Below are positions 2,373 to 51,928 of a stretch of 61,746 nucleotides of DNA, in pieces; position 1 is the stretch's first letter; each line of letters starts with the position of its first letter. The notes beneath the pieces are model-generated. The model saw only the letters and a program-made list of their open reading frames with translations, had not been told where the DNA came from and ran no database searches. This DNA comes from a virus: positions 1-61,746 of the IMG/VR virus record IMGVR_UViG_3300027754_000096. One strand, 5' to 3'. Both the position numbers and the translations under genes were made by a program.

Positions 2373-2648
2373 CTAAAATACTTGCTCTTTGCTTTTTTTG
2401 AATTCTTCAAAAGCCAATTCTAAAGTTTTTGCTTCTTCTTCCAAAGCTTTTAGTTCTAATTGAACCTTCTCATAAAAAGTTTTTAGTTCTAATTTTTTAA
2501 TTTTTTTGTCTTCAAATATTTGAGATATTTTCTTTGAAAATTCAACAAATTCTTCTGTCAAAAGATACTCATTTTTTTCCATATTTTCCTCCAATTTACC
2601 ATCTAAAGGTTTTTTATCCTTGCTTTGTATATATCGTTTTTTAGCCAT
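2373..2648 (-). CDS. Small coiled-coil protein downstream of SpoVR
   Basis: The 91 residues are almost entirely charged and helical. Heptad-like spacing runs from about residue 25 to 88 (EFSKKISQIFEDKKIKKLELKT and on), predicting a coiled coil. It overlaps the 3' end of the SpoVR gene by 8 nt and is the last gene of the PrkA-YeaH-SpoVR operon, so it may be an accessory subunit of that module; this is positional inference only. Confidence 0.5.
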   Translation of the reverse strand: MAKKRYIQSKDKKPLDGKLEENMEKNEYLLTEEFVEFSKKISQIFEDKKIKKLELKTFYEKVQLELKALEEEAKTLELAFEEFKKSKEQVF

Positions 2649-5600
2649 TTTTTGTGTGCTCTTCTCTGCTTACAACTTCAATATCTTTTATTGGATCAGT
2701 GCCATAACAGCAATAGACCTTTTCATTACCATCTTTGTCTTGCGTTGACAAATAAACATCATTTCCCCAAATAGCTCTTAAAGCCACTAAAACGTCTGAT
2801 ACGTAAGGCTCGTATAAAGTTCGTCCATCAAACTGATGCTGCAACATCATGCCCCCTTTACCCCTATAATTGGGCTCTGTGAGCTTTATTTCTGGCTGAC
2901 CTCCATTTAAGTGCCTTTTCATTAAAAGACTTTTTATTTTCTTATAATCTCTACTTTCTAAACGAAACTCACCATTAGGATAGTGAGTCCAATAAAAATA
3001 TTCTTGTGTTCTGCAAAAATCTTCTGTGAAGAATTCATGTATAAATGTTAAATCATCATAATACTTTCTTACCTCAAATATTTTCTCTTTTCCTAAATTA
3101 GTTTTAACATCCCAAGATTCTTTTTGATGAATATTAGTGCATTCGTCCCATTCAGAGCCAAATCTCCCTTTATCCCATCTATCACGAATATCGGATAATA
3201 AATAATACCCAAGTTTATAAGGATTCATAGAATACTTACCACCTAAAACGCCCATTTTATGCTCAGAATATTCTACAATTCCACAATCATGACTTTTTTG
3301 CCCAAGAGAAGCAAACCCCTGTTCTGCCATGATTACTGAGTCTGTTGTGCTATTATGATTTATGAATCCACAAGCTGAATACATATTGCTTGTTTCTACC
3401 GTAATATCATAAACTGTATCTTTTCCAATTTTTTCGACAGAAACAATTTTATTTTCAAGTTTTTGTTTCACAAACCATTTGTGACTAGAGATGTATTTCC
3501 TTAATTTGTCTTTTTTTCTTTGTAAACCAAATCCAATTTGTTCTTCGTATTTAACAGCTTCTGAGCCGGTCATCCGAATATGCCAACATGAATCCTTTTG
3601 TTTTCTTCTTGTAGAGAGAATCTTAAAATTCAAAAGCACATTCTGAATTTGTCTGGACATGCTTTCGCTTGATGTGGAGAGTATTACCCCTGCAGTCCCC
3701 GCATAACCATCGCAATCAAAATAAGATCGGATGAATGCCGCAACCACACTTTTTGGTGATTTCAATATAATTTCTGGTATGTTTTTAAGTCTAGCACAAA
3801 CCCCTGTTTTCATACCAAGATGAACAAGGAGTTCTTCCAAATCTTTAGAGTATACAGCAGCCCTATATCTACCATTTTTTGATGATCCATCCCATTTTAC
3901 CTTACATTCTAATCCAAATAGGGTACTCAGCAAAGTAGCGTAATGATCAATTTGCTCTTTATCTCCAGATGTTAAACCCATAGTTCTTTTAACTAAAGAA
4001 ATATGACCATCACCAATCATGTATCCAATAAATGAAGCAAAGTCTTCATTCATATATTCAGGAACACTAATAATGTTCCTCTTGTTTCTCATAAAAGTAG
4101 TTTTTTGATTGTCATATTCTTTAATCAAAGTTCCTAAAGAATCATTTTTTTCTTCACCTTTGTATTGATATTTCCTATAAATCACTTTATATTTTGAAAC
4201 AGATGCCATTTCGGCAAGTTCATTAAGTTCAATTCTTTTTTCTGGTACCTCGTACTTAACCTCTTGCAAGTCATTCTGCCAGATATCGGAAAAAGACAAC
4301 TCCAATACCTGTCCAACGGACATTTCGTCCATACGAATCCAATCATACCTGCCCATAATACGATGGTTATTAGATCCCTCAAAAACATATCCACGACGAG
4401 TTTCTATACGATACACATCTCGATTTTCAAAAGTGAACCAATTCGTAACTTTTCTTTCTTTCTCTCCATCGTAAATGGTGACTTGCATTCTATTTTCAAC
4501 TATTTCTCCCAAAGTCAAAATACCAAAATTGCTACAAACAAGAGTGTCCTTTTTCCCGCAAGCCCATCCTTCGTTTAAGGTCTTAGTTTGTCTTTGTGGG
4601 AAAAAATACATTGCCTCGTCATAAAGCATAGAGATAATATCAGCTTGCCATGGTTTGAGCGGTGCGTTATCCCTTAAAAATCCCAAAATATTTTTTGTTG
4701 GCTCCTTAAAAATACCTATTTCTTCTTCAATGTCTTCTTGATGAATTTTTTCATTCTCTTTTTGGCGAAATTCTTGTGTGTTTATAAAAGGCTCCATATA
4801 CATTCTTTCTTTATTGACTGTGAGCCTTCTTGGTTGTCTATAAACTCTTTCGTCTTGCACGATAACATTCTTTGAAATTTTATCAGACCATGCTTCTGCT
4901 CCGTCAATTAAAGTTTCCAGTCTCATAACCCAATCAAGAAACTCTATGACTCTTTCTTTTCCCCAACGAGACATATAATTTCTAATTCTTGTGCCATGGT
5001 TTGCCATTTTATTAAGCATATTTGTATCTGTGGCACTAAAATGTATATTGTTCTTAAAAAAGTCATTATGCCCTGTGGCATGTGCAATAACAGTCAAATG
5101 GTCCAAAAGAGTGTTGCTACTCAAGCAGTAAATATAACAAGGATTTGTATTGTGTGTGATCAATCCATACGCAATAAAATCATGAGCATCATGATCCAGT
5201 GCAATATCAACGGTTTCGATCTCGTCTCCTTCGGTAACACTATCAACAACAAATAAAGGATTTGAAATAATATCTTTAATATAATTTGGAACAATTAATC
5301 CTTGTTCTTCTGCTCTCTGTACAAATGACGAACAAGAATTAATCCCGACATTTTTTTTCTCAAACTTTTTAATAGAATAGCCAAGACTATGGTTTTTATA
5401 TGTTGTGATACCAATATCTTTTGCCCACATAATCAATTGTCGTTGAATGTATGGTAACTCTATTCCAGAACCACGACAAAATTTTCTATCAAGTAGTTTT
5501 TTAAGTGATTCTTGCTTATATTCAAATACAAAACCTATTCTATTGTAAAATTTATTTTCAGCCCAAATTCCTTGAATTTTAACAACATTAATATATTTTT

Positions 5601-6768
5601 GATCACCTTTTTTGCCCTTACCATTTTTTAATGTTTTTAAATTAGAAAGAATTCCCATTTCCGAAAGCATAATCTGAACATCATCTGCTAATTTTTTATT
5701 GTAACAACTAAAACCAACATGGTTAGTTACATATCCATCAGTATCGAACAAACCACGAAGAAAAGCACATCTATAGGCAGGAGGAGACTTACAAATAATA
5801 TCTGGAATTATTTTTTCTTTAAATGTTTTACCTTTCTTTAAACCAATCGAATCAACAAAATCAACTGCGTTTTTTGAACATAATGTTACAGTGAAACAAT
5901 TTGGCTTTTCGTAAATCTCTGCAACAACTCCAAATACCTTTTTAAATAAATCTACAACATGTTCTGCATATGTCCTGTGTTTTTTACCAACAGCAATGGT
6001 TAACATATTTTCAGCAGACTTTACTCCTATCGACCCATCTCCAACCAAAATTCCAAGAAGTTCCGCCAATTCTATCGTAATATGATTCGGTGGATAAATT
6101 TCTTTAATACAATGCCTAATGTTGGGACTTGTTGATTCAAAAACTTGTTCGGATGACCAATCAATTCTTGGTGCATCCCAATTACTTTCATATGAATCAG
6201 TTCCTACAAAAATGTCACCAGGCACAACATCCGATGCCTTTTTCCAGATCAAACCATTATTAGAAAGAACACGCCATTTGTGATTTGGCGTACATACTAA
6301 TGTTTGACCATACTTCAAACAAATTTTCTTAGTTTTAGAGGCATCTTGTCTTTTTATCCCAACAACATTCCTAGTTTCATTTCCAACAATAACCTGATCG
6401 CCAGCCACTACATCTCCAGCTAGAACCGTACCCCGCTTAGTCAAAACCGGAGCATCAAGTTCACAGCAATTGATTACCATTTCATATATTTTAAAAAGTC
6501 CGAACTCATACCCACGTTGTAACTCTTCGTATTCCATACCAAACGACCAGTGTGGAAAACGAACAGGGAATCCATTATATGCTGCTATTTCGCTAATTTC
6601 GTCGTATGTTAGCAACTGAACTACTGTTGGATAAAAATCTAGACCCCAATCTTTACAAGACTGTAATATCTTTGGTGCTAGCTCTTTTAGCTCTTTAGAA
6701 AGCTGCACGCCTGGAACAGTATTATCTCCTAAAAGAATAGGAGATCCATGCAAAAATTTATTTGACAT
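2641..6768 (-). CDS. spoVR: SpoVR family protein interrupted by two inteins
   Basis: The 1375-residue precursor carries about 532 residues of SpoVR/YcgB sequence, close to the family's usual 500-odd, in three pieces: 1-100, 541-736 and 1140-1375. Family signatures are YEMVIN..NP, HATGHNDFFKNN, the KTLNEGWA block and a C-terminal YEPYVSDVLVALRAIWG region. Inteins occupy residues 101-540 and 737-1139; each begins with Cys, ends in HN, and is followed by Thr or Ser. Splicing would rejoin VIN-TNP and GWA-STT. In enterobacteria YcgB acts genetically with the kinase YeaG and with YeaH in starvation and stationary phase; biochemistry is unclear. Here all three lie in one operon. Its start overlaps the preceding gene by 11 nt. 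Confidence 0.93.
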   Translation of the reverse strand: MSNKFLHGSPILLGDNTVPGVQLSKELKELAPKILQSCKDWGLDFYPTVVQLLTYDEISEIAAYNGFPVRFPHWSFGMEYEELQRGYEFGLFKIYEMVINCCELDAPVLTKRGTVLAGDVVAGDQVIVGNETRNVVGIKRQDASKTKKICLKYGQTLVCTPNHKWRVLSNNGLIWKKASDVVPGDIFVGTDSYESNWDAPRIDWSSEQVFESTSPNIRHCIKEIYPPNHITIELAELLGILVGDGSIGVKSAENMLTIAVGKKHRTYAEHVVDLFKKVFGVVAEIYEKPNCFTVTLCSKNAVDFVDSIGLKKGKTFKEKIIPDIICKSPPAYRCAFLRGLFDTDGYVTNHVGFSCYNKKLADDVQIMLSEMGILSNLKTLKNGKGKKGDQKYINVVKIQGIWAENKFYNRIGFVFEYKQESLKKLLDRKFCRGSGIELPYIQRQLIMWAKDIGITTYKNHSLGYSIKKFEKKNVGINSCSSFVQRAEEQGLIVPNYIKDIISNPLFVVDSVTEGDEIETVDIALDHDAHDFIAYGLITHNTNPCYIYCLSSNTLLDHLTVIAHATGHNDFFKNNIHFSATDTNMLNKMANHGTRIRNYMSRWGKERVIEFLDWVMRLETLIDGAEAWSDKISKNVIVQDERVYRQPRRLTVNKERMYMEPFINTQEFRQKENEKIHQEDIEEEIGIFKEPTKNILGFLRDNAPLKPWQADIISMLYDEAMYFFPQRQTKTLNEGWACGKKDTLVCSNFGILTLGEIVENRMQVTIYDGEKERKVTNWFTFENRDVYRIETRRGYVFEGSNNHRIMGRYDWIRMDEMSVGQVLELSFSDIWQNDLQEVKYEVPEKRIELNELAEMASVSKYKVIYRKYQYKGEEKNDSLGTLIKEYDNQKTTFMRNKRNIISVPEYMNEDFASFIGYMIGDGHISLVKRTMGLTSGDKEQIDHYATLLSTLFGLECKVKWDGSSKNGRYRAAVYSKDLEELLVHLGMKTGVCARLKNIPEIILKSPKSVVAAFIRSYFDCDGYAGTAGVILSTSSESMSRQIQNVLLNFKILSTRRKQKDSCWHIRMTGSEAVKYEEQIGFGLQRKKDKLRKYISSHKWFVKQKLENKIVSVEKIGKDTVYDITVETSNMYSACGFINHNSTTDSVIMAEQGFASLGQKSHDCGIVEYSEHKMGVLGGKYSMNPYKLGYYLLSDIRDRWDKGRFGSEWDECTNIHQKESWDVKTNLGKEKIFEVRKYYDDLTFIHEFFTEDFCRTQEYFYWTHYPNGEFRLESRDYKKIKSLLMKRHLNGGQPEIKLTEPNYRGKGGMMLQHQFDGRTLYEPYVSDVLVALRAIWGNDVYLSTQDKDGNEKVYCCYGTDPIKDIEVVSREEHTKNG
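3352..4560 (-). mobile_element. Intein 2 in SpoVR, LAGLIDADG type
   Basis: Residues 737-1139 of the precursor, 403 residues. The N-terminal splicing block starts CGKKDTLVCSNFGILTLGEI, block B is GSNNHRIMG, and the C-terminal end is SACGFINHN followed by Ser. Two dodecapeptides, FIGYMIGDGHIS (913-924) and FIRSYFDCDGYA (1012-1023), are about 99 residues apart, the normal spacing of an active homing endonuclease. Insertion is in the highly conserved NEGWA motif, typical intein target choice. Confidence 0.9.
5149..6468 (-). mobile_element. Intein 1 in SpoVR, LAGLIDADG type
   Basis: Residues 101-540, 440 residues. It starts CCELDAPVLTKRGTVLAGDV, has a block B-like TPNHKWRV, and ends FIAYGLITHN followed by Thr. 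Dodecapeptides LLGILVGDGSIG (238-249) and FLRGLFDTDGYV (336-347) keep both acidic catalytic positions. It differs clearly from intein 2, so the two were acquired separately rather than duplicated in place. Confidence 0.9.
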
Positions 6769-7309
6769 TAGTTTTTCTCAATGGGTATTTTGCTACAAAA
6801 AAGTTCATTTCTTTTTTTAACGTTTTACTATTTTTGGTGGATAGCCTAAAACCAGATTTCATCAACTTTTGTGAAATTGTAGGATTGTCCAAACGTGCAC
6901 CAGTTTCTATTATGCGTAGCACTTCTTTGATTTCTCTTATAGGCATATTAATCTTTTTTGCAGCTTTAATCAAGCAAGAACATGCACGAATAGCTTTATT
7001 AATTCTTTCTTCACATTTCATAAAAAAAGGTTCAAGTGAATTTGGATGATGAATATACAGATCTTCTATTTTCATTCCTTTTGTATTTTTCTTGCCTTTA
7101 GCAAACAACCAATATCTTTGTCTCCATTTATTGATTTTTTTAACATGTACTTGCCTAGCTGTTGATATGCCTTTGTATGGAGAAGTAAGCGTTTTAACTT
7201 CAAACATATTGCCTTTTTTATCTTCTGCGTCGTGTAAATATCTGCTGTCAACCTTAGTAAGTTGACATAATTTAATTATTTGTTTTTCTCTTGAATCATC
7301 TTGAGTCAT
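6758..7309 (-). CDS. Hypothetical protein, weak PD-(D/E)xK-like N-terminus
   Basis: The 183-residue basic protein sits between YeaH and SpoVR and overlaps the latter's start by 11 nt. Residues 20-45 contain acidic residues and a strand ending in FEVKT, which resembles the ExK half of a PD-(D/E)xK nuclease core. A WRQRYWLF strand and a helical, Lys-rich C-terminal half follow. The fold call is weak; it could equally be an accessory factor of the SpoVR module. Confidence 0.45.
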   Translation of the reverse strand: MTQDDSREKQIIKLCQLTKVDSRYLHDAEDKKGNMFEVKTLTSPYKGISTARQVHVKKINKWRQRYWLFAKGKKNTKGMKIEDLYIHHPNSLEPFFMKCEERINKAIRACSCLIKAAKKINMPIREIKEVLRIIETGARLDNPTISQKLMKSGFRLSTKNSKTLKKEMNFFVAKYPLRKTNVK

Positions 7310-7339
7310 AGCTAAAATTTTTTTGTAATTATATTATTT

Positions 7340-8551
7340 TTAAGGATAAGAAGCATCTTCTTCGTTATTCCCTAAAAGCGATTTTATTGCATTCATTATT
7401 TGTTTATTTCTTTCTTCTTCACTTAGTGCAGAAGAATTCCAATAACCAGCCGTAGAACCTTCTCCAATAGAAACAGTTCTCACATAATCACGCTCTAGTT
7501 TTCCTTGTCTTATTGCTTGATCCACATCATGCTTAACGCTTCCGGTTGTAACAGAAGAAAGTATTTGAGTAATACCTGTAAAATTAACAACATTTGGTCC
7601 AAAGTCTGATTCTAAAGTTGAAATAAAAACTTGGTTATCATCAGTCCAGTTTTCACCGTCTGTAAAATAAAAAACATAGATATTCCATTTGTTTGTAGGA
7701 TACCTATTTTCAAATTGTTTAGAAATAAACTTTAAAGCACTGCTACAGGTTGTTCCGCCGCCAAATCTATATTTATAAAATTTATCTTCATCTACTTCCA
7801 TGGCACTAGAATCATGCCAAACGTATAATCGATCCACTCGATCATAAAACCTTCTTATCCACGTATCTATCCACCAACTCATATCAGAAACAATATCGCA
7901 TTTCGTAGCGTCCATAGAACCAGATCCATCTCTTGCAAAAACAATAAGAGCATTGCTTGATGGTATTTTTATTTCATTAAACTGTCTGTACCTTTTATCT
8001 TCATTTATTGGCTTAAGAATTCTTACAGGATCTTTTAGTCCTGGAACGTAAGAAAGATCGCTCAACGTTCCTTCTACAGCTTGTCTCTTTAATGTTTGCA
8101 TTAGAGTGCGTCTGTTGTGCCGCAGTGACTCTGGACCAATTAAAGAGATATTGTTATATTTTATTTTTATTTCATCATAAGTTTCATTTGTTTTTTTCTT
8201 TAAATTTGGAAGCTTTAGTTCTTCCTGCATAAATTTAAGAACATCTTCTAGATCTAGGCTAATGGTAATTCCCTCGGATTCACCTTGCCCAGCAGACCCT
8301 TTGCCTTTCTTGGGTTCGTCTTTTCCGATCACATCCCCATCTTTACCTTCTCCTCTTCCAACGCCGTCGTCGCCCGATCCGTAAACAATATGGGGAATAT
8401 CTATTTTTGGAATTGTGATAGATATTTTTCCGTTTTTACCACGGTTACGAACAATCTGTCCGCTTTTTATAAACTTTTTAAGGGCTTTTCTTATCTTGCC
8501 CCCTACAACGTCTCGGAAGTCTTTCCAATCTTCTTCAATTCTTCTAGGCAA
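7340..8551 (-). CDS. yeaH: YeaH/DUF444 von Willebrand A-domain protein
   Basis: The 403-residue length and order match the YeaH (DUF444) family. There is a basic N terminus (RRIEEDWKDFRDVVGGKIRK), a Gly/Lys/Asp-rich linker around 58-95, and a von Willebrand A domain whose metal-site motif DGSGSM gives Asp208, Ser210 and Ser212. GGGTTCSSAL and YFTDGENWTDD correspond to later metal-site loops. The start is TTG, chosen because AGGTG precedes it by 6 nt and the protein then begins MPRRIEE as in homologues. YeaH genes accompany PrkA and SpoVR in bacteria, as here. An upstream segment of the same mRNA can pair with this ribosome site (see the hairpin at 8818-8882). Confidence 0.92.
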   Translation of the reverse strand: MPRRIEEDWKDFRDVVGGKIRKALKKFIKSGQIVRNRGKNGKISITIPKIDIPHIVYGSGDDGVGRGEGKDGDVIGKDEPKKGKGSAGQGESEGITISLDLEDVLKFMQEELKLPNLKKKTNETYDEIKIKYNNISLIGPESLRHNRRTLMQTLKRQAVEGTLSDLSYVPGLKDPVRILKPINEDKRYRQFNEIKIPSSNALIVFARDGSGSMDATKCDIVSDMSWWIDTWIRRFYDRVDRLYVWHDSSAMEVDEDKFYKYRFGGGTTCSSALKFISKQFENRYPTNKWNIYVFYFTDGENWTDDNQVFISTLESDFGPNVVNFTGITQILSSVTTGSVKHDVDQAIRQGKLERDYVRTVSIGEGSTAGYWNSSALSEEERNKQIMNAIKSLLGNNEEDASYP

Positions 8552-8580
8552 GGTTCACCTTTTTAAATTTAAATTATCAA

Positions 8581-8811
8581 TTAATCTAAACAAACCAATT
8601 CAAAAATAAACTTATTATCATCTATTTCGCAAACAAAATCGGAAAGATTAAGGTGCATAAGAAAATCTTTTTCTTGTTTGGTTAATCTTTTAAAAAAGTC
8701 ACCAAAAGTTCCATCTTCACTCCATACCTCTAGACCAGCATCATCAATTTTATTGACGATTCTCTTTTTTTTCGCAGTACCCAACCAATGGTTTTTCATT
8801 TTAATTTTCAT
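8581..8811 (-). CDS. Hypothetical protein between prkA and yeaH
   Basis: A 76-residue protein of unknown function begins MKIKMKNHWLGTAKKKR, with a basic N terminus and an acidic C-terminal half ending in FELVCLD. A longer frame opens at a TTG inside the neighbouring hairpin, but that codon lies in a stem and lacks a good ribosome site, so the ATG at 8811 is preferred; the site before it (GGA) is also weak. Its place within the prkA-yeaH-spoVR operon suggests a small partner or regulator. Confidence 0.45.
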   Translation of the reverse strand: MKIKMKNHWLGTAKKKRIVNKIDDAGLEVWSEDGTFGDFFKRLTKQEKDFLMHLNLSDFVCEIDDNKFIFELVCLD

Positions 8812-8817
8812 TTTCCA

Positions 8818-8882
8818 GTAGGGGCAGAGCCCCAAAAAAGGTGAACTTACACACCTTGCCCACAGAATAACTCTGCCCCTAC
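8818..8882 (-). promoter_or_regulatory. Nested intergenic hairpin with anti-Shine-Dalgarno segment
   Basis: Perfect 12-bp arms (8818-8829 and 8871-8882, GTAGGGGCAGAG with its complement) enclose an inner 6-bp stem (8838-8843 with 8852-8857). The element begins 3 nt after the prkA stop and is GC-rich beside AT-rich flanks. Plus-strand 8835-8846 is the reverse complement of 8553-8564, so within the leftward mRNA this segment can pair over 12 bp with the ribosome site of yeaH. It lacks a terminator T-run at the right place. A role as 3' stabiliser, attenuator or translation switch is inference. Confidence 0.55.
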
Positions 8883-8885
8883 CAA

Positions 8886-10973
8886 TTAATTTTCTTCCTC
8901 AGCTAAATCTCCACGAGCAAATATACTACCAACAAAGTCCAAAACATCGGTAGCAGACCTTTCGTTGTATCCATACTGTTTGATCAGTCTGGTTTTGATA
9001 GCATCTATTTTTTCTTGAATATCTTTATCTACAACAGTTGCTCCACTCACATTAAGAGCGGATAGCTTTATGGTGTCCTTAACATCTTCAAAAAGTTTTG
9101 CTTCTAAAGCTTTTCTTAATTTTGGGTTTGAATCCCATCTAAATTGCTTTTGTTTGTGTGCTAAATCACCAATAAATGCAGCCATCTGGCGACGAAAATC
9201 TTCTGCACCTGTTTCGGGTATTTGAATCTTTTCCTCAATCTGACGCATTAATCTCTCGTCAGGTTTTCTGTCCTGACCTGTTATTGGGTCTTTGATCCTA
9301 GACTTATTAATATAAGCCATCACGTTGTCAATATAATTGGTGCACAATCTGATAATTGCATCTTCGTCACCAACAAGTGCTTTTTGAACCTCAGCCTTAA
9401 GAATTTCTGTTAACTTCTTCAGTGCTAAATCCACGCAAGTAATGTATCTACCGACTTGTTCTTTATTCGTTAGAAGAGAAGAATTTTCCAATCCATCTCT
9501 TAGCTCATTTAGAACCATAAACATATTCACATATTCATGATTGTTTGCTAAACAATTAGATATTTTGTCTTGTAAGTATCTCACACTAACTCCGCCCGCC
9601 ATTCCTTCATCTGGATACTTGTCTTTCATTTCTTTAACAGCATCTTCTGTCCATCCCGGCAGAAGCCGTCCATCATAAAGCTCGGCTTTTTCTATTAAAG
9701 AAAGCTTCCCATCTTTATCATCTAGCATTCGAGTAAGTACAGAAAAAAGAGCAGCTATTTCTAGTGTATGAGGTGCTATATGTTGCTTTACCTTATTTGG
9801 ACCATAGTCCTTCTCTAGTATCTTCACTTCTTCCGACCACTTTAAAGTGTATGGAACATCAATTTTTGTTGTTCGATCACGGAATGCTTCCATATACTGA
9901 TTGCTCTTTAGCTTCTGAAATTCTGGATCATTTGTATGGCTAAAAATTGCTTCATCGATACTAACCTGTGCGAATTTCTTTGGCTTAATACTTTGTTCTT
10001 GACTCGCTCCTAAAAGGTCATACAAGAATGCTGTGTCTAACTTCAATACTTCTATAAATTCTATTAGCCCTCGATTACCAGCCATAAATTCGCCATCAAA
10101 AGAAAATGCTCGAGGATCTGAGTCAGAACCAAAGTTGCCAATTTGCCTAAAATTAATATCTCCTGTTAGCTCAGTGCTGTCCTGATTCTTTTCATCCTTT
10201 GGTTGGAATGTTGCAATTCCACAGCGATCAGCCTCGCTATAAACTTTTCTAATTACACGAATATGATTAACTAAAACTTTTTCTAGATCTCCTTCATACT
10301 TTTTAAGCAATGATCCCATGAACTTTTTGCATAAAGGATCTAATTCATCATTACACTTTAAAGTATAAGAATCAGTTCTTCTGTTTTCTGGTAGCGTTTC
10401 CTCAAATATTCTGTTTAACTCTGCCATAAAAACTTTTCTAATTTCTAACGGCAAAAGCTTTAATGGTTGTTCATGCATAGGACATGCACATTCTGTGTCG
10501 GTGTAAATACCATCAGGTCCTGTTGGCAAATTAACCCACTTGAATGAATACCAAGCTCCATCATCGGTTTGCGAGAATCGCTCAAGACCCCTTTTAAGAA
10601 GTCGGCAGATTGTGGACTTGGAGCTTCCAACAGGACCGTGTAGAAGCAAAATACGACGCTCAGCACCGTATCCTCCAGCAGCTCCTTTTATAAACTTTAC
10701 AAGTGCATCTTTCATCGGAATCAAACCAACAATTGGTAGTTCCGCATCATCAAAAAAATTATAATGTACATAAGTTTTTCTGTATTCTTCAACAGTAGAA
10801 CTTCCTTTTTCCATTATCATTTCATAAATGTTTTGCCAAGAATTTCTAGCAAGATATGGCTTTTGTTTTACTAGTTCCAGATATTCAATAAAACTCATTT
10901 CTGAGTTTAAAGATTTAAACACATCTTTGTTAAAAATACTTAGTAGTTTTTCTAAGGTGTTTTGTTCAGTCAT
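8886..10973 (-). CDS. prkA: PrkA/YeaG-type serine protein kinase
   Basis: The 695 residues match PrkA (family about 640-690). An AAA-like domain has Walker A GPVGSSKS (residues 113-120), a WVNLPTGPDG loop and CPMHEQPL, and is followed by LTGDINFRQIG and GEFMAGNRGLIEFIEVLK, both strong family signatures. The C-terminal PrkA domain includes DEAIFSHTNDPEF and GVSVRYLQDKI. In E. coli YeaG phosphorylates proteins during nitrogen and carbon stress and works with YeaH. The start at 10973 is preferred to an ATG 22 codons upstream because GGGA lies before it. It is the first gene of the leftward operon prkA, small gene, yeaH, small gene, spoVR, coiled-coil gene. Confidence 0.94.
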   Translation of the reverse strand: MTEQNTLEKLLSIFNKDVFKSLNSEMSFIEYLELVKQKPYLARNSWQNIYEMIMEKGSSTVEEYRKTYVHYNFFDDAELPIVGLIPMKDALVKFIKGAAGGYGAERRILLLHGPVGSSKSTICRLLKRGLERFSQTDDGAWYSFKWVNLPTGPDGIYTDTECACPMHEQPLKLLPLEIRKVFMAELNRIFEETLPENRRTDSYTLKCNDELDPLCKKFMGSLLKKYEGDLEKVLVNHIRVIRKVYSEADRCGIATFQPKDEKNQDSTELTGDINFRQIGNFGSDSDPRAFSFDGEFMAGNRGLIEFIEVLKLDTAFLYDLLGASQEQSIKPKKFAQVSIDEAIFSHTNDPEFQKLKSNQYMEAFRDRTTKIDVPYTLKWSEEVKILEKDYGPNKVKQHIAPHTLEIAALFSVLTRMLDDKDGKLSLIEKAELYDGRLLPGWTEDAVKEMKDKYPDEGMAGGVSVRYLQDKISNCLANNHEYVNMFMVLNELRDGLENSSLLTNKEQVGRYITCVDLALKKLTEILKAEVQKALVGDEDAIIRLCTNYIDNVMAYINKSRIKDPITGQDRKPDERLMRQIEEKIQIPETGAEDFRRQMAAFIGDLAHKQKQFRWDSNPKLRKALEAKLFEDVKDTIKLSALNVSGATVVDKDIQEKIDAIKTRLIKQYGYNERSATDVLDFVGSIFARGDLAEEEN

Positions 10974-11094
10974 GATATTTTTCCCATTTTGAATTAGTAC
11001 TAAAATTTCTGGTGTGATAAACGCATCATACAAAAACAAATTGACTCGATCAAGCCACGAAATTAATATAGTGAACTACTAACAATTTTAGAAT

Positions 11095-12420: not shown

Positions 12421-12437
12421 ATTTCACACTGTGAAAT
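12421..12437. repeat. Perfect palindrome at gene end
   Basis: ATTTCACA-C-TGTGAAAT has 8-bp arms and abuts the stop codon of the leftward gene ending at 12437. It resembles the palindromes at 2349 and 12755 in its position just after a stop codon. Confidence 0.45.
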
Positions 12438-12721
12438 TAGACAATTTGTTGCTTGATTGGTTGCTTCTTTGCCTGTGTTCGCATAAAGGTGTCCACATCT
12501 TTTTGTATGGTGATTGGATCAGGCTTTAATCCAGATAATGCTCGGGCAGCATTTTGAAATTTTGGATCCTTTAATACGGCTCTTGCAACATTACTAGCAT
12601 TTGGCTTCTCACCAGCACCAGCCAATGCTCCTGCTATAGATCCTTGCTTTTGTAAATTGAAGTTTACATATGAATCTTCTTTTATATATCTACATTCAAG
12701 CCATTTTAAAAAAGTAATCAA
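12437..12721 (-). CDS. Small protein with capsid-targeting-like N terminus
   Basis: The gene encodes 94 residues when started at TTG 12721, where GGAG lies 6 nt upstream; an ATG nine codons earlier has no such site. With this start the N terminus reads MITFLKWLECRYIKEDS, matching the F-x-x-W-L-x-E pattern shared by about nine proteins here. The remainder has an Ala/Gly-rich segment and a basic C terminus (RTQAKKQPIKQQIV). It is probably a packaged internal protein; function otherwise unknown. A palindrome directly follows the stop. Confidence 0.5.
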   Translation of the reverse strand: MITFLKWLECRYIKEDSYVNFNLQKQGSIAGALAGAGEKPNASNVARAVLKDPKFQNAARALSGLKPDPITIQKDVDTFMRTQAKKQPIKQQIV

Positions 12722-12783: not shown

Positions 12784-14022
12784 TTAATAATTTTTTAATA
12801 AAAATGATTTGAAAGATTCCGCTTTTGGTTCTTCTTCAGACTTTACTTCCATTGTTTTTTTATCAATATATTCAATAAACATGCGGGTGGTTTCTAGTAT
12901 TATTTCTTCATTTTCTCTTATGTTATCAGGATCTATTTTCCATAATGTCATATACACTATGGAATGTGCATTCGGGAGTCCGTAATGACCCAAAACAAAA
13001 TAATTTACTCCTTCCGCTTGCAATTCGAGTATTTCTTTAGCCAGTCCAGTTCTTTTTTCTGCTGTGTGTAAAATTTCATGAGTCAATTCATGAATCATTG
13101 TGCTTATGTTTTCTTGCAATAATTGAATGGATCCTTTTCTACTAACTCCCCTAGCTCCATCTAAACCTTTTGCACTGACTGAGACTTCTATGTTTTTTTC
13201 TTTTGCAAAATCAAGCAAGGCATCATAAATGTATCTTGTTGACTCGTCAGGAGTTTCTTCATCATACCACTTAGGAGTTGGAACATACATATGTTCTTTT
13301 CCTACTATGGGTACTGTGTCTAAAATGTCATAGATATTTCCCAATGTAAATCCGGCAAGTTTGGTTTCATCTGCGTTAGTATCTCTTATAGGAGCGTCTT
13401 CTTCTCCATTTTTTGCTTTATACGTAATTGGGACATATATCTTAATAGCTGTTGAACCAAGCTTAAGCATTCTACCAAATTTTTCTTTCCATGTGTTTTT
13501 ACCTTCGACATGTGTTGCGTTTGGTTTTTGAATCCAAATCAACATTTGATTATTAAAAGATCTATGTGTGAATTTTTTTCTAAAATTAAGAAATTGGTTG
13601 ATTTCTTCCGAGCCTCGACTTTCTAGAATTTTTTTCTTTAGATCTTGAAATCTTTCTTTGAGTTTTTCTGACACTCCTAAATCCGCATGCTCTTCCACAT
13701 CAGGTTCTTCTGGCGATGGTGGATTAAAATTTTTATTTAATTGATTTAATTTTTGCCTTATTTGTGGCAAAGCAACTATTAATTCTTCTGGTTCGTATTG
13801 TTGAACAGAAACCCACTTGCTTATTTCTTTGTCCCATCTAAATCCTAGGGACTTAATTTTTTGTTTATTTTTATAGGTTTCATACCCAGCGGCAGATTTG
13901 TCAGCTAGATCACTATCAACAACAAACACAAGTTTTCTATCTTGAGTATACCTTTTTTTAATAACCAAGTTTTCTTGAAGCTCTTGTTGCCTCATCTTAA
14001 CAAACTCATTAAATTTTTTCAT
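12784..14022 (-). CDS. ArdC-like protein with HExxH peptidase motif and capsid-targeting-like N-terminus
   Basis: From the ATG at 14022 (AAGAAGAG upstream) the product has 412 residues. It begins MKKFNEFVKM, a candidate packaging peptide. Residues about 49-75 carry GFRWDKEISKWV, a DUF5710-like motif. Residues 145-205 (SFNNQMLIWIQ, GKNTWKEKFGRMLKLGSTAIKI) match the ArdC N-terminal single-strand DNA-binding domain. HELTH at 311-315 followed by a helix with ELQAEGVNYF gives a gluzincin-like zinc site as in ArdC/ImmA-type proteins. ArdC proteins protect incoming DNA from restriction. The C-terminal FKSFLLKNY repeats the N-terminal motif style. Its being a co-injected anti-restriction protein is inference. 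Confidence 0.75.
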   Translation of the reverse strand: MKKFNEFVKMRQQELQENLVIKKRYTQDRKLVFVVDSDLADKSAAGYETYKNKQKIKSLGFRWDKEISKWVSVQQYEPEELIVALPQIRQKLNQLNKNFNPPSPEEPDVEEHADLGVSEKLKERFQDLKKKILESRGSEEINQFLNFRKKFTHRSFNNQMLIWIQKPNATHVEGKNTWKEKFGRMLKLGSTAIKIYVPITYKAKNGEEDAPIRDTNADETKLAGFTLGNIYDILDTVPIVGKEHMYVPTPKWYDEETPDESTRYIYDALLDFAKEKNIEVSVSAKGLDGARGVSRKGSIQLLQENISTMIHELTHEILHTAEKRTGLAKEILELQAEGVNYFVLGHYGLPNAHSIVYMTLWKIDPDNIRENEEIILETTRMFIEYIDKKTMEVKSEEEPKAESFKSFLLKNY

Positions 14023-14114: not shown

Positions 14115-14354
14115 ATGAAATTTATAGACTGGATAAGACTGAAAGAAGAGGCGGAATCCGCTCCTGTGGCGGCGGCAACAGCAGCTCAGACTACTCCTGC
14201 TCCCTCTGTGAATTTAAGCAGCACAATCACCAGCGATATAGCAAAATTCCCTCAAAGAATGTTTAGCAAACAAGTACAAACATCTGATAATTGCAGAAAT
14301 TGCTCTAAAGATTGGAAAAACTGGCACTATACTAAAAAGAAGAAAAATAAATGA
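14115..14354 (+). CDS. Small protein with capsid-targeting-like N terminus
   Basis: The 79 residues begin MKFIDWIRLKEEAES, a clear member of the shared N-terminal family, followed by an Ala/Thr/Pro-rich linker. A short C-terminal part contains NCRNCSKDWKNWHYTKKKKNK-like CxxC and basic residues, suggesting nucleic-acid or metal binding. AGAGGAA precedes the start. The stop overlaps a following 25-codon frame (ATGA at 14351), which may or may not be used. A late, DNA-associated internal head protein is the likely role. Confidence 0.55.
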   Translation: MKFIDWIRLKEEAESAPVAAATAAQTTPAPSVNLSSTITSDIAKFPQRMFSKQVQTSDNCRNCSKDWKNWHYTKKKKNK

Positions 14355-14408: not shown

Positions 14409-14546
14409 TTGAAAAAAAAGCTAATTAACAAAAGAATAAAAAAGCTATCAGATAAAAAGTGCTATTTTTGCAGTTGTGATGTTTACGAACTTCTTGACAT
14501 ACACAGCTCCTACAAAACAATAATTCATATAATTTTCCTTTGTTGA
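14409..14546 (+). pseudogene. Truncated HNH endonuclease remnant
   Basis: A 45-codon frame (TTG start) reads KKKLINKRIKKLSDKKCYFC and then CSCDVYELLDIHS. This parallels the first 35 residues of the intact HNH protein at 15776-16057 (LINKKATKMLSGGCFFCG) but stops before the catalytic histidines. The remainder of 14355-14686 holds a second such fragment and no intact gene. Confidence 0.55.
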
Positions 14547-14686: not shown

Positions 14687-15703
14687 TCAATATTGTTTCA
14701 ATATTTTTTCAATATTCTTCAATTCATTCCAAGCCTTTTGTCTAATAGGACGCCATATTTTACCATAGCCAGCATTTTCATAATATTGTTTAAAAAACAA
14801 AAAGCGATTGTATTTGCGTTCAAGACTGAAATTTGCCCCTTGGTAAATATAATTCATAAATAACATAGCGTTTCTTTTATTGAATGACACTTTCCAAATA
14901 TTCCTGTTGAATCTCAAATAACTTTTTGCACCAAACTCATCTAAACAAACTTCTTGTAATTTTTTTGCAAAATCATAAGAAGCACAAATCGTTACACACG
15001 GATAGACATAATATTTATGAGAATTTTGTATGCAGCCATCGCCATCAAAATACCCTCGTAAGAAATGCCTCAATAAACAAACTTTAATGTTCGGAAATTT
15101 AACTATTTTAGTTTTTCTTGGAACGCACCCAAGAGTGACAAGTTGGTTAGCCAAAATAACATTCGTGATACATAACGACACTTGGTCGCCACAATCAGTT
15201 CGGGGGACCAATTTTACTGAATAATCAGTAACAAGACATTTTTTAATGTAATCTAATATAGCCCTGTCATTTTCTTTAATTTGCACTCTAAATCCAGTCA
15301 ATTTACCTTTGCTGTCGTACACGCATCCATCGGCAAAAATGAAACCTAATGAATACGCCTTGTCTTGAGTATCTATTTGTTGAAAAAAAGTTTCATCAAT
15401 ATCAATAGTTGTTCTCTTGCGTAACTTAATGCCACCTAATTGCAATGCTTTTTTAACTCTGGGTCTATTAGACTTAATGACATCAGAAATTTGCTTTAAT
15501 GTAAAATTTTGATTATAAAGAAGAACCACCTTATTTATCTCATCTTGTTGCAACACAAGTTTTTCTTTATTTGACTTTGGCACTTTAAGGTTGTGTGCAA
15601 CACAAATACGACGAATTACAGACCTGTCACAACCGCACTTTTTTGCAATTTTAGTTAAACTTGTGCCAGATTTTAACCAAATACAAATTTGTTCAATATC
15701 CAC
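14687..15703 (-). CDS. Free-standing LAGLIDADG homing endonuclease
   Basis: The 338-residue product starts at GTG (AGGAG 7 nt upstream). Residues 1-90 contain two helix-turn-helix-like segments (SLTKIAKKCGCDRSVIRRIC and TLKQISDVIKSNRPRVKKAL), giving a resolvase-like DNA-binding front. Dodecapeptides YSLGFIFADGCV and FLRGYFDGDGCI retain the catalytic acids. There is no splicing block, so this is a free-standing homing enzyme rather than an intein. It borders an HNH gene and HNH debris, marking a homing-element hot spot. Confidence 0.88.
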   Translation of the reverse strand: MDIEQICIWLKSGTSLTKIAKKCGCDRSVIRRICVAHNLKVPKSNKEKLVLQQDEINKVVLLYNQNFTLKQISDVIKSNRPRVKKALQLGGIKLRKRTTIDIDETFFQQIDTQDKAYSLGFIFADGCVYDSKGKLTGFRVQIKENDRAILDYIKKCLVTDYSVKLVPRTDCGDQVSLCITNVILANQLVTLGCVPRKTKIVKFPNIKVCLLRHFLRGYFDGDGCIQNSHKYYVYPCVTICASYDFAKKLQEVCLDEFGAKSYLRFNRNIWKVSFNKRNAMLFMNYIYQGANFSLERKYNRFLFFKQYYENAGYGKIWRPIRQKAWNELKNIEKILKQY

Positions 15704-16190: not shown

Positions 16191-16766
16191 CTAACCGATA
16201 TTTTTTTTCTTGAACAAACTATTGCGGTGCTGTTTTATTAATGCACAAGCTTCTGGAGTCCAGCTTCTTGTTCTAACATGTCCTTTGAAAACATATTGGT
16301 CCATCTCTGCTTGACCAAATCTTATGGCTTTATCATTTGGAGAAAAAGACCTATAAATCATATGTTCAAATGATTTTAACATATCTCGCATTGAAGTGGG
16401 ACTCATTACATAATATAAATTCATTCTAGGCACTAAAATACAAGCACCTTGATTGATATAATCCTGTAAAAGAAATGTTTTAAATGTAAAAGTTGTAGAC
16501 CATTCTGGGATTGTCTTAATATCTACTTTATAAGTCTTTCCGTTGATTATAATTAAATTATCTGCGTTGTTATTGCATAGATTGCCTGCTATCAAGCCAC
16601 CGGTATTGTCTACTCCATAATTACATATCTCTACTGACTCTCCTCTAGAGCATAAATCTGCTGCGTATATCCTTATCCAGTCCTGTTCCCTGCCTGTGAA
16701 ATCCTTTATATTTTCTGAAAATATTTCTTTAGATCTGTTGTCCATTCTGTGTGTTAAGCTGCTCAT
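16191..16766 (-). CDS. Putative PD-(D/E)xK nuclease next to Dam methylase
   Basis: From the ATG at 16766 (AAAGG upstream, 10 nt after the methylase stop) the product has 191 residues. NADNLIIINGKTYKVDIKT (68-86) has the Asp69 and Asp82-x-Lys84 spacing of a restriction-like nuclease core, followed by a mixed C-terminal part (GHVRTRSWTPEACALIKQHR). The arrangement methylase then nuclease-like gene recalls a restriction-modification pair; without a search the nuclease call is tentative. A longer frame overlaps the methylase but has no ribosome site. Confidence 0.5.
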   Translation of the reverse strand: MSSLTHRMDNRSKEIFSENIKDFTGREQDWIRIYAADLCSRGESVEICNYGVDNTGGLIAGNLCNNNADNLIIINGKTYKVDIKTIPEWSTTFTFKTFLLQDYINQGACILVPRMNLYYVMSPTSMRDMLKSFEHMIYRSFSPNDKAIRFGQAEMDQYVFKGHVRTRSWTPEACALIKQHRNSLFKKKNIG

Positions 16767-16776
16767 ATTATAACCT

Positions 16777-17616
16777 TTAATAATTTGTAATAAAAAGTTC
16801 TTTTCCTTTTTTCTTAGTTTTAGATTGATTTTTAGCACTAGATGTGCCGCAATATGTCCAAGAAGCAGATTCAATATTGAAGTTGCTAAACAATTTTCGT
16901 ATCACTCCTCCTTCATCATCATCATAACTAATCAATATTTTATGTTTGCACTTATAAACAGCATCTCTAAATTTTTCATGATCCTCAAGCATAAAACCAT
17001 ATCTGTACAATTGTGAACTTCGAGCCAAATTTGTATTAACCAAGTACGGAGGATCAGCATATATCCACACATCTTCTCCTGGTGTAGAAAGCAATTGTTC
17101 GTAACTGCCTACAGTAATATTAACATCTTTCAAGTGCTCTGCTGCTTTTTCTAGTTTATTGCCTTTTACAATATTCCATCCAGAAGGATTAGAAAAATAC
17201 ATTCTAGATGGCATGTCATAATTTGTTCTGCCTGCAAAAACTGTTTTATTTACAAATAAATACCGCAAAGCTTGATCGCACTTATCATCAAAAGACAATT
17301 TATCAAATACAGATTTTAGACGAGCGTTATAAATTTTTTTCCCACCAGGACGAGCCGAAGTAAGTTTTTCACCTTGCTTTTGAGGTTTTATTTTTTTACA
17401 CATTTCTATGAATTCAGTGGGTCTATCTCTTAGTGCCAGATATACGCTCATTAAATGTGGGTCAATATCATTAATCCATCTGCTTATTGGCTGAATAGCA
17501 AAAAATACAGATGAGCCACCACAAAATGGCTCTCGATAATCCTTTATTACACTTGGTGCTTTTGAGACTATCAATTTCGCCACTCGGCTTTTACCGCCCG
17601 GAAACCGAAATATCAT
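16777..17616 (-). CDS. dam: D12-class N6-adenine DNA methyltransferase (Dam-like)
   Basis: The 279-residue length fits Dam-type enzymes. FPGGKSRVAKLI (5-16) and REPFCGGSSVFFA (28-40) form the S-adenosylmethionine site, NDIDPHLMSVYLAL follows, and IYADPPYL (185-192) holds the catalytic DPPY. It probably methylates a short adenine-containing site in phage DNA and protects it from restriction; the target cannot be read by eye. Neighbours are the Lsm-like gene (4 nt upstream) and the nuclease-like gene downstream. Confidence 0.92.
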   Translation of the reverse strand: MIFRFPGGKSRVAKLIVSKAPSVIKDYREPFCGGSSVFFAIQPISRWINDIDPHLMSVYLALRDRPTEFIEMCKKIKPQKQGEKLTSARPGGKKIYNARLKSVFDKLSFDDKCDQALRYLFVNKTVFAGRTNYDMPSRMYFSNPSGWNIVKGNKLEKAAEHLKDVNITVGSYEQLLSTPGEDVWIYADPPYLVNTNLARSSQLYRYGFMLEDHEKFRDAVYKCKHKILISYDDDEGGVIRKLFSNFNIESASWTYCGTSSAKNQSKTKKKGKELFITNY

Positions 17617-20320: not shown

Positions 20321-20713
20321 ATGTTAAATGCCTGTAGTTTTAAAACGTTCTTTTTCCATGAACAGCAAAAAAAAGCTGACTACCTTGCCGCTTTGGGCGA
20401 CGAAGAAGGAATTGAATGGAGCAATCTTGTTAAAATATTAGAAACAGAGCCTTGGATTTCCTCGCATTTTGGCTTAGGAAGCCCAAATAAAGAAATACTG
20501 TATAAGCTCTCAGCATGGGAAGTTGTTAAAGGATCATTATCGCCACAAGGAGCCGATATAAGATTAAAACCACAAACAGGTAGTAGAAGCTATTTATCTG
20601 GTAATAAGCTTAACAAATCTAGCTATCAAGATAAAAAAAGGTATCACTTAAACAGAAAAGAATTAACCAGTTTTCTTACAACAGGCTGGTCTCCAGCTTT
20701 AGGCGGAGTATGA
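20321..20713 (+). CDS. Hypothetical protein with capsid-targeting-like N terminus
   Basis: The 130 residues begin MLNACSFKTFFFHEQQ, whose F-x-x-F-F-x-x-E matches the shared N-terminal pattern. The body contains a conserved-looking GIEWSNLVKILETEPWISSHFG helix pair and a basic middle. TATATATATA immediately precedes the ATG and there is no ribosome site, so expression may be leaderless. The stop overlaps the next start (ATGA). Confidence 0.55.
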   Translation: MLNACSFKTFFFHEQQKKADYLAALGDEEGIEWSNLVKILETEPWISSHFGLGSPNKEILYKLSAWEVVKGSLSPQGADIRLKPQTGSRSYLSGNKLNKSSYQDKKRYHLNRKELTSFLTTGWSPALGGV

Positions 20714-20883
20714 ATTTTAAAGAATGGATTAAATTAAAAGAAACAGGAACCTCTACAGCATCTATTGCTGTATTTGCTAGACCTTTGTTTAGTAGTCCAA
20801 TTAAAAGAATTCCAACACAGAAACTTAAAGTATCAGACAAAAAGTCAGTTGCTACCGTTAACTCCGAAATCCCTATTTTGTAG
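20710..20883 (+). CDS. Short capsid-targeting-like protein, possibly frameshifted
   Basis: The 57 residues begin MNFKEWIKLKETGTS and then read ASIAVFARPLFSSPIKRIP, a clear family member. Coupling to the preceding gene is by ATGA overlap. Downstream, other frames continue with protein-like sequence (ALASIAMNQWFF near 20893, then GVIRVGATISGDPNMHLKK ending near 20995), which suggests that an originally longer gene lost its frame. Sequence error is possible. Confidence 0.5.
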   Translation: MNFKEWIKLKETGTSTASIAVFARPLFSSPIKRIPTQKLKVSDKKSVATVNSEIPIL

Positions 20884-41105: not shown

Positions 41106-41190
41106 TATTTGTTTAGCATAACAAAAACGAATCAGTTATTCAAGAGATCAAAGACGATTGATTGAACAACTTAGATGTATTTTTAATCAG

Positions 41191-41246
41191 TATGATTGCA
41201 CAATCATATCCGTTAGAATCATTAAAAGTATGATTGTGAAATCATA
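41191..41246. promoter_or_regulatory. Two related palindromes upstream of the polymerase gene
   Basis: TATGATTG-CA-CAATCATA (41191-41208, 8-bp arms) and TATGATT-GTGA-AATCATA (41229-41246, 7-bp arms) are 38 nt apart and share the half-site AGTATGATTG. They lie 86-141 nt before the polymerase start and look like operator sites. The remainder of 41106-41455 has no gene. Confidence 0.5.
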
Positions 41247-41455
41247 ATCTTTAGAGTACTAAACCAAGATTCAAGGTTCTATATGCTCTATTAAGTTTAT
41301 CTGAGTAAGTTACCCATTACCTTAATATCCGATGAATGATGATTCACCATTCACTCAGACAAACATCAGAACCAATACACCACTGTTCATTATGCTTATT
41401 CAACCTCTTAATCCAGGACGCTCTATTCCCTCATGAAGAATAGACACCAATCATT

Positions 41456-41847: not shown

Positions 41848-42069
41848 TTAAAGTTCAAATGCAATACCGTCTTCTATTTGCTGTTTAATTTGTTTTAAAA
41901 CCATAAAAGGATCATTGTTAGCTTGTTTTTTCCATTTTTTATGGTACATTGCATCTGTCACATATGTGTGCCTTTTACCATCTACATAAACGACAATTCT
42001 ACCATCATTTGCAAATAATGCTATTGATATTTTGGTTTCTTCAAAAAGTATCCATTCAAAGAAGTTCAT
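41848..42069 (-). CDS. Small protein with capsid-targeting-like N terminus
   Basis: The 73 residues begin MNFFEWILFEETKIS, a close match to the shared N-terminal pattern, and continue with a beta segment (SIALFANDGRIVVYVDGK) and a helix (DPFMVLKQIKQQIEDGI) resembling small KTSC-like folds. TATATATTTTATC precedes the ATG without a ribosome site. It is the only certain gene inside the origin-like junction. Confidence 0.55.
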   Translation of the reverse strand: MNFFEWILFEETKISIALFANDGRIVVYVDGKRHTYVTDAMYHKKWKKQANNDPFMVLKQIKQQIEDGIAFEL

Positions 42070-44407: not shown

Positions 44408-44416
44408 TTACCTAAG

Positions 44417-46322: not shown

Positions 46323-47120
46323 ATGAGCAAAAGCATGAGATTTTCAAAATGGTTATTGGAATACGCCGATTATGGATTCGGAAAAGAATCCATGAAAAAT
46401 TCAAATGATCTATATGATGGTAAAGACAAACCTTGGTCTTTATTTAAAACAGAAGAATTTTTTAATGAACTAAGAAGTTTAATCCTGTCGGAAGATAAAC
46501 AAATAACAAAAGACTGGCAGACTTATATTGATTGGATACAAAATAATAATAATATGTCTGTTGTTATAAACCCATTTGGAAGTTTACGAATAACAACAAG
46601 AAAAACAATAAAAGACCTTAATGGAGATTCTGTGCAAGTTTGTAAGCATGTTTTCGATATTGATGATCATCATGTAGATCAAGAAAAAAATATAGCAAAC
46701 CACATATATGATCTTGCCGTAGAATCTAGCAAAGACGATTCAGATTATGCATCTGGTAAATACAATGGTACTAAAAAACTAGCAAGAGAATTATTTAATG
46801 CAACGCAGAGCAAACATCCAAAATATATCATGTTTCCTGTAAAGTTTTTAGAAATGAATTCAGATTACTACAAAATTGTTTTTGAGTTTAAAGGTTCTGG
46901 TGCTGGAACTCCAAATCAATCTACTGCCTTACAATTTGATATTGATATAATTTTTGATAAAGAAAAAGGACTTATACGTTGCTGGGGATATAATATTGAT
47001 AGTCCTTCTAATAAAAAACAATTCAACATACAGCCAAGCGAATGGGATGAATATTTTTCTCCACAAGAGTCAAACTCTAAGATAATCTCAGTAATAACGA
47101 CTACTTTTATGACATACTAG
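46323..47120 (+). CDS. Hypothetical protein with capsid-targeting-like N terminus
   Basis: The 265-residue product begins MSKSMRFSKWLLEYADYGFG; MRFSKWLLE matches the shared pattern, and the second Met could be the true start. The body is mixed alpha/beta with an acidic surface (DIDDHHVDQEKNI, DYASGKYNG) and is not recognised. TTATATAGACT directly precedes the ATG and there is no ribosome site. A packaged protein is likely. Confidence 0.55.
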   Translation: MSKSMRFSKWLLEYADYGFGKESMKNSNDLYDGKDKPWSLFKTEEFFNELRSLILSEDKQITKDWQTYIDWIQNNNNMSVVINPFGSLRITTRKTIKDLNGDSVQVCKHVFDIDDHHVDQEKNIANHIYDLAVESSKDDSDYASGKYNGTKKLARELFNATQSKHPKYIMFPVKFLEMNSDYYKIVFEFKGSGAGTPNQSTALQFDIDIIFDKEKGLIRCWGYNIDSPSNKKQFNIQPSEWDEYFSPQESNSKIISVITTTFMTY

Positions 47121-51403: not shown

Positions 51404-51928
51404 ATGAGATTTAAACAATTTTTATTAGAGGGAAGCATACAAGAATTGTATGTTAGTACTGTTAAGGCATTCCCTGAAACTACTAAAAGACAAAACTCAA
51501 TTGATACAATTAGAATAGTTAAATTAGAATGGATTCCATATCTAGATTTTAAAACATTGTATATCAAGGGTCTGGCACAGAATATAGAAAATTCTAAAGA
51601 ATATATGCCAATAATTGTTTTTAAAAATATAAAATATATGGATGAAAAATCTAAAAATACCGTACAAATAGTTGATAAAAACAACAAAAAGTATATTATA
51701 GAAAAAATAGATCACAACAATAAAGTACTAGTAAGATGCAATTGTAAAGATTTCTTTTGGAGAGGAAACTATCCAAATCATTTAGATAAATCTTTATATG
51801 GCAGAAAAAGAAAGCCATATTCAGCAGTTGGAACAGGCAAGGCAGCGAATCCAAAAAACGATCCGATGTTGTGTAAACATATTATTAAATTACACAAAGT
51901 TTTAGAACAGTCAGGAATAACATACTAA
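51404..51928 (+). CDS. SWIM zinc-finger-like protein with capsid-targeting-like N terminus
   Basis: The 174 residues begin MRFKQFLLEGSIQE, where LLE-G also fits the T4 prohead protease site (L/I-x-E, then G/A/S). Residues 112-159 carry Cys112-x-Cys114 and Cys157-x-His159 in RCNCKDFFWR and MLCKHI, the SWIM pattern CxC-xn-CxH that binds DNA or proteins. The linker is basic (YGRKRKPYSAVGTGKA). Likely packaged in the head with DNA. Confidence 0.65.
   Translation: MRFKQFLLEGSIQELYVSTVKAFPETTKRQNSIDTIRIVKLEWIPYLDFKTLYIKGLAQNIENSKEYMPIIVFKNIKYMDEKSKNTVQIVDKNNKKYIIEKIDHNNKVLVRCNCKDFFWRGNYPNHLDKSLYGRKRKPYSAVGTGKAANPKNDPMLCKHIIKLHKVLEQSGITY

Follow-up and report, generated by a model that had tools for sequence, protein, structure and literature searches.

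An ArdC-family metallopeptidase with a predicted T4-type capsid-targeting leader in a large uncultured phage

ArdC and T4 IPI represent two separate textbook ways to protect incoming DNA, and we describe here a gene family that appears to join both modes. The gene lies in the window (the whole 61.7 kb stretch of viral DNA analysed, a fragment of a large phage) and its product has an ArdC fold with an intact active site, established by sequence comparison and modelling, behind a phage-class leader that ends in an L/I/V-x-E junction. Our proposal, which we consider probable as a whole, is that an ArdC-family protein has been turned into a packaged phage protein, injected and shielding the entering DNA. 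The family yields predictions at the level of single residues: a cut after LQE17 and a leader that would suffice for packaging.

The gene, its ArdC-type core and the added modules

The ardC-like gene is a real open reading frame on the minus strand, running from an ATG at 14022 down to 12784 (12784..14022, 412 aa). It recurs as a 99% identical copy on another contig (L001) and in three relatives with 56–58% identical proteins (L002, L005 and L023), and it is further supported by matches to ArdC in profile and structure. An upstream TTG at 14046 could lengthen the protein by eight residues; the L001 copy has no start codon at the equivalent position, so the ATG at 14022 is favoured. A search of 50,697 phage records gave only ArdC cores at about 25–42% identity, none of the matches covering 80% of the protein.

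The core spans residues 117–392 approximately. It comprises an ssDNA-binding-type ArdC-N domain (residues about 117–240, 13303..13674, minus strand) and a gluzincin metallopeptidase domain carrying HELTH...ELQAE (residues about 257–392, 12847..13254, minus strand). For the window protein, the Pfam matches to ArdcN (E 0.034) and to the M78 peptidase (E 0.06) stayed under the cut-off, and ArdcN in the relative L023 rose above it (3e-5). ArdC was the top match of a search with a profile of the family, A4 (E 1e-4), and residues 149–401 of the window protein matched PHROG 7245, 'anti-restriction protein' (E 6e-4). PADLOC returned no match.

Structural comparison pointed the same way. An AlphaFold model built on a three-sequence alignment was unusable (pLDDT 41), and a 61-sequence alignment raised the pLDDT to 80.7. 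With this model, Foldseek retrieved the ArdC of R388 (6i89) as the sole significant match in the PDB (E 9e-6, probability 1.0, 273 columns), and nothing under E 0.001 was retrieved from a viral structure library. VIA placed ArdC on top (Z 8.7 to 6i89 and 8.6 to 6sna), followed by YfcM and IrrE near Z 6 (IrrE 5.8), with likeness to IrrE/PprI and a weak likeness to a Spartan-type DPC protease; 43 residues superposed on the Rad4 beta-hairpin domain with an rmsd of 1.3, as expected for ArdC-N. Identity in the structural alignment with ArdC is only about 15%, and the global TM-score of the model is low (0.21), so that the relative placement of its domains is untrustworthy. The active-site helix motif HELTH (residues 311–315, 13078..13092, minus strand) is invariant in 61 aligned sequences: H311, E312 and H315, together with E333, E337 and Y357, never vary. 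Because profile matches, structure matches and invariant residues agree, we assign the core to the ArdC-type DNA-binding metallopeptidases with an intact active site; by the model, the protein almost certainly has the ArdC-type fold. A first-pass annotation of this DNA had named an ArdC-type ssDNA-binding domain and a HELTH metallopeptidase site and had suggested structure prediction against ArdC as a check; the profiles, the comparison with 6i89 and the invariant residues bear it out on each count.

Between leader and core, residues 18–96 (ETYKNKQKIKSLGFRWD...KW; 13735..13971, minus strand) form an alpha/beta module, modelled mostly with pLDDT >90 and largely missing from cellular homologues. 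It contains the DUF5710-like motif KSLGFRWDKEISKW that the same annotation had pointed out. The LGFxWD...KW core of this motif is indeed present and conserved through the phage family, with a Pfam match to DUF5710 (PF18974) that remains under the cut-off (E 0.13, 12.4 bits versus 26.5). Several conflict-associated domains, that is the N-terminal module, ArdC-N and the metallopeptidase (MPTase), are thus found in one chain, as in polyvalent proteins.

The protein ends in the tail ESFKSFLLKNY (residues 402–412, 12787..12819, minus strand). A related tail, with the acidic E402, S/N, an aromatic residue and hydrophobics, recurs in five relatives, as seen when the window tail PKAE-SFKSFLLKNY is aligned with VVPE-SFKKFFGTF, PVKE-NFDYLFRLFCGL, TIQE-KSFKRFFEKRYKY, PVQE-SYINSLKAMW and PKHE-AKSWFFM; in this alignment, FKSFLLKNY forms the end of a tail that the family conserves. 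Elsewhere among the N-tagged proteins of these phages such a tail is generally missing, the exception being an L038 neighbour that ends in LTESISFKKFFHRNV. We rejected the tail as a general packaging signal, since most genomes tested gave no convincing excess and the cases were mostly ArdC itself. The idea that this gene combines ArdC with a packaged protein, put forward in the first-pass annotation, survives in its ArdC-like fold and T4-type leader. The C-terminal FKSFLLKNY that it read as a tag is real and conserved in the family, but is not common to other tagged cargo.

The leader and its predicted cut site

The leader consists of residues 1–17, MKKFNEFVKMRQQELQE (13972..14022, minus strand), with F4, F7 and then LQE17, and residues 2–14 form a helix in the AlphaFold model. 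The T4 signal relies on residues 4 and 7 to target a protein to the head, and gp21 cleaves behind L/I-x-E (PMC9026906). T4 ipI starts with MKTFKEFTSTTTPVSTITE|A (the pattern MKTFKEF...ITE), ipII and ipIII with MKTYQEFIAE|A. The spacing of the window leader matches that of T4 IPI and IPIII, with aromatics at 4 and 7 followed by L/I-x-E, and LQE17 is placed, like an L/I-x-E cut site, 10–19 residues from the start.

This junction is kept across the family. Members with identities as low as 28% place [LIV]xE directly ahead of the first strand in 18/18 cases: each has Glu in alignment with E17 and one of L, I or V two positions earlier, versus a background of 0.23 at other Glu residues of the same proteins. 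The leader itself varies, its identity averaging 0.19 versus 0.39 for the protein body. As the sequences are related, the 18/18 does not amount to 18 independent events, though it spans at least four unrelated leader styles. Leader and junction pattern are essentially missing from cellular ArdC homologues, with 1/78 among about 80 homologues from bacterial and archaeal genomes, whose matches mostly set in around residue 117 or beyond it; among the plasmid matches listed, the majority have their start at residues 81–138 and a few lie earlier. These data support an N terminus that behaves as a T4-type capsid-targeting leader, and a prohead protease is likely to cut after LQE17. In calling the N terminus packaging-like, the first-pass annotation is vindicated by the T4 IPI/IPIII spacing, the conserved junction and the phage-class leader style.

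The main gap in the case for packaging is the protease itself, which was not recognised in the lineage of the window. Five large relatives with the ArdC family gene (G002, G005, G010, G012 and G013) have PF03420, the T4-type prohead protease, together with PF07068, the Gp23 capsid protein. No homologue of either was recognised by sequence in the window or in G006, both of them fragments, or in the relative G019 (381 kb), where Pfam, a two-sequence HMM, a motif search and tblastn gave no gp21-like protease. Given the size of G019, its head proteins are probably divergent. The prohead protease of phiKZ-like giant phages was likewise long elusive (PMC9026906).

Leader classes among unrelated genes and genomic context

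A leader that serves as an address tag ought to recur on other, unrelated genes within one phage. We counted tags as the N terminus F..[FWY][ILVMYF], also written F/Y-x-x-F/W/Y-hydrophobic, using gene starts from a simple caller. All three genomes exceeded expectation: the window with 8/70 genes versus 1.0 expected (P 1e-5; 6/70 and P 7e-4 after removal of two doubtful genes), G006 with 19/73 versus 2.0 (P 7e-14) and G019 with 50/544 versus 9.1 (P 7e-22). L/I-x-E in residues 8–30 was commoner in tagged than in untagged genes of the window (P 3e-4) and of G019 (P 2e-4), and showed only a trend in G006 (P 0.06); some tagged genes have no clear LxE. The T4-type late promoter TATAAAT was not in excess upstream of tagged genes.

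Within the window, the census recovered the downstream neighbour of the ardC-like gene (94 aa, MITFLKWLE, 12437..12721, minus strand) and its divergent neighbour (79 aa, MKFIDWIRLKE, 14115..14354, plus strand). Unrelated proteins with the tag begin MRFKQFLLEGS (51404..51928, plus strand; MNFEQWFIAES in the G019 orthologue), MRFSKWLLEYA (46335..47120, plus strand; FSKWLLEYADYG is kept in the G019 orthologue) and MNFFEWILFEE (41848..42069, minus strand). A short ORF of 57 aa, starting with MNFKEWIKLKETG (20710..20883, plus strand), fell below the length cut-off of the census.

A matrix of ArdC leaders against the N termini of other genes was nearly block-diagonal, with own-phage z values of 7.2 (G008), 4.1 (G006), 2.9 (G018), 2.8 (G007), 2.7 (G002) and 2.1 (G012). 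The ArdC leaders of G007 and G008 read MKDKDLELLSETY and MRDVDTIILENLY, and unrelated neighbours in these begin MRDNDTIILENFY, MRDNDTLILETLY and MKYQDHQLLEDAY. The window leader gave z −0.3 against its own contig, 3.6 against G006 and 2.3 against G019; with −0.3 at home, it is placed by its tag class (F-x-x-F plus the LQE junction) and not by its contig. On these N-terminal comparisons, the leader goes with the phage rather than with the ArdC body.

The genomic context suggests mobile cargo. G019 is the closest relative of the window that we found, with long synteny and most orthologues about 40–89% identical, and it has no ArdC, which makes ArdC an accessory, dispensable cargo. At the equivalent site G019 has a different tagged gene, MIPFQQWREEAQ, adjoining MISFNSWLE, the orthologue of window 12437–12721 with its tag retained, and the site looks like a cargo slot with changing content. 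Besides ArdC (56–58%), the window shares one similar protein with G006 (33%) and four with G002 (23–30%). As so little else is alike, the ArdC body has either moved between unrelated phages or been unusually conserved, and the tag is local.

At least four tag classes were found on ArdC: F-x-x-F/W-L, MRDxDxxxLExxY, MKxxIKKxLxE and MKKIxITExQ. We think it probable that large uncultured phages load dozens of unrelated proteins by means of lineage-specific tags, and that a mobile ArdC body has been refitted with the local tag in at least four classes, always ending in L/I/V-x-E. If so, G019 would tag about 50 of its 544 genes, ArdC would be a recurrent injected cargo and injected effectors could be predicted from sequence alone. 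For jumbo phages in general, the census points to a large number of unrelated proteins that are candidates for injection, most of those scanned being without a known domain.

Further observations concern the tagged genes of the relatives. G019 (L297–L316) has about 50 genes with an F-x-x-W-L-type tag, many at about 223–231 kb; together they supply a ready-made set of candidates for injection. In G002 (L014), several genes at about 124.8–134.4 kb share a second leader style, DPLVSAAAxIL...LxE, which may represent a further class of packaging tag. In G006 (44043–46387 and 40555–41337) and G002 (85345–86199), tagged or neighbouring proteins have a common PW.I.H....H motif and are a possible second family of metallopeptidase-like cargo. 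A tagged ArdC neighbour in L023 (7354–8745) contains ALAHELRHT (HExxH), with a weak eCIS_core match (E 0.03).

Several other genes of the window deserve mention. In the region of the ArdC insertion, a 45 aa ORF (14409–14546, plus strand) resembles the beginning of an HNH-like gene in G019 (112551), of which it is probably a decayed copy, and a LAGLIDADG endonuclease gene (14687–15703) adjoins it. At 16191–17616 (minus strand), a D12-class adenine methyltransferase (Pfam E 4e-31) immediately precedes a protein of unassigned family (191 aa), possibly nuclease-like; lying close to the ArdC gene, the two might work as a pair in modification or restriction. A bacterial stress-kinase module extends over 2641–11039, with SpoVR (2641–6768, minus strand) interrupted by intein-like LAGLIDADG/Intein_splicing regions, a DUF444/YeaH-like gene (7340–8551, minus strand) and a PrkA kinase gene (8886–11039, minus strand); relatives of PrkA were found in at least 132 stretches of viral contigs. 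A weak PHROG match of the 1375 aa ORF at 2641–6768 to a terminase was rejected, this ORF being the SpoVR gene with its intein-like insertions. A 2479 aa ORF (54274–61713, minus strand) has a G+C content of about 0.49–0.50 versus 0.32–0.34 for most of the window.

Proposed mechanism, alternatives and known systems

Packaging, cleavage and injection are steps that we infer. The protein would be made in the infected cell with its 17-residue leader, and the F4/F7 helix would bind the prohead core like the signal of a T4 internal protein. Once the prohead has enclosed it, the prohead protease would cut after LQE17 and free it from the core; the protein would then share the head with the packaged DNA and enter the next host by injection. 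There, ArdC-N would bind the entering DNA, especially its single-stranded stretches, and the protein would shield this DNA from restriction or other early attack, while the conserved peptidase might target the protein itself or DNA-associated proteins of the host. We hold packaging and injection to be likely. A role in DNA protection or anti-defence is slightly more plausible than not, early DNA protection being the likeliest benefit by analogy with known systems, and restriction protection as the actual benefit is the least certain point of the explanation. ArdC-N domains bind ssDNA, and the ArdC of R388 lets plasmids escape HsdRMS, its peptidase site being dispensable for this anti-restriction and no proteolysis of HhaI being observed (PMC7213743). 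That the site is nevertheless invariant hints at another or additional job and suggests that proteolysis also matters.

This is where the main rival, cleavage of host proteins, takes hold. The protein would still be packaged and injected, but as an effector peptidase that DNA binding places on host or defence proteins, which it would cleave in a Spartan- or IrrE-like manner. The active site invariant in 61 sequences, the likeness to IrrE/PprI and, weakly, to the Spartan-type protease, and an anti-restriction in R388 that leaves peptidase conservation in want of another reason (PMC7213743) all agree with it, and host-protein cleavage has been proposed for jumbo-phage ArdC-like peptidases (PMC7824862). 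No cleavage of HhaI was seen with R388 ArdC, however (PMC7213743), and we regard this rival as possible but unlikely.

Two further readings deny the injected protective role. The N-terminal stretch could be no packaging signal at all, but a leader for partner docking or folding on an early, non-virion ArdC homologue, as the failure to find a prohead protease in the window lineage and the tagged genes with no clear LxE would allow. Yet the leader is spaced as in the internal proteins of T4, follows the phage and not the ArdC body, is missing from cellular ArdC and shares its style with dozens of unrelated G019 genes and 19/73 in G006, which renders this reading improbable. It is more improbable still that the ArdC domain has been reused in a packaged core or head piece, helping to assemble the virion or condense DNA and playing no part against host defence: capsid-targeting leaders do bind the core, and T4 IPIII also affects head assembly (PMC9026906), but the catalytic site is conserved and the syntenic G019 does without the gene. 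Injection for early protection of the DNA remains our preferred reading.

Precedents exist for phage ArdC-like peptidases, for packaged polyvalent proteins and for the capsid-targeting signals of T4 (PMC7824862, PMC9026906 and PMC5512222). In the open-licence papers searched we found neither an ArdC-type protein with a capsid-targeting leader, which is weak evidence of novelty, nor the same cargo with different phage-specific leaders. The window protein resembles the polyvalent proteins of Iyer et al. (2017) in joining ArdC-N and MPTase to added modules; the part of that account considered here predicts their packaging from gene context and, unlike the present case, describes no explicit capsid-targeting leader (PMC5512222). 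The ArdC-like peptidases of the Gordonia phages Stormageddon (gp198) and RedWattleHog have an ArdC core about 28% identical to that of the window protein; neither a DUF5710 module nor a leader carrying an L/I-x-E junction was seen in them.

With the plasmid ArdC of R388/pSa (6i89, 6sna) the window protein shares the predicted fold, an ssDNA-binding ArdC-N followed by a gluzincin with HExxH and a glutamate helix. It differs by its phage leader with the L/I/V-x-E junction, its DUF5710-like module and its C-terminal tail, and it would be delivered in the virion, whereas plasmid ArdC is expressed from a plasmid that the recipient already contains. T4 Alt is a packaged and injected enzyme that gp21 processes at both ends (PMC9026906), and by analogy the C-terminal tail of the window protein may be a second propeptide; unlike Alt, an ADP-ribosyltransferase, the window protein is a predicted peptidase, and its C-terminal site has no L/I at P3 before the Glu. 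The closest parallel in the leader is to T4 IPI, IPII and IPIII, which are all injected inhibitors of the GmrSD type IV restriction system (PMC12373910). Like them, the window protein has a short leader in which positions 4 and 7 are aromatic and a predicted cut site of the L/I-x-E type follows, is an accessory and variable cargo and is a candidate anti-restriction protein; unlike these small inhibitors, the cargo would be a 395-residue multi-domain DNA-binding peptidase.
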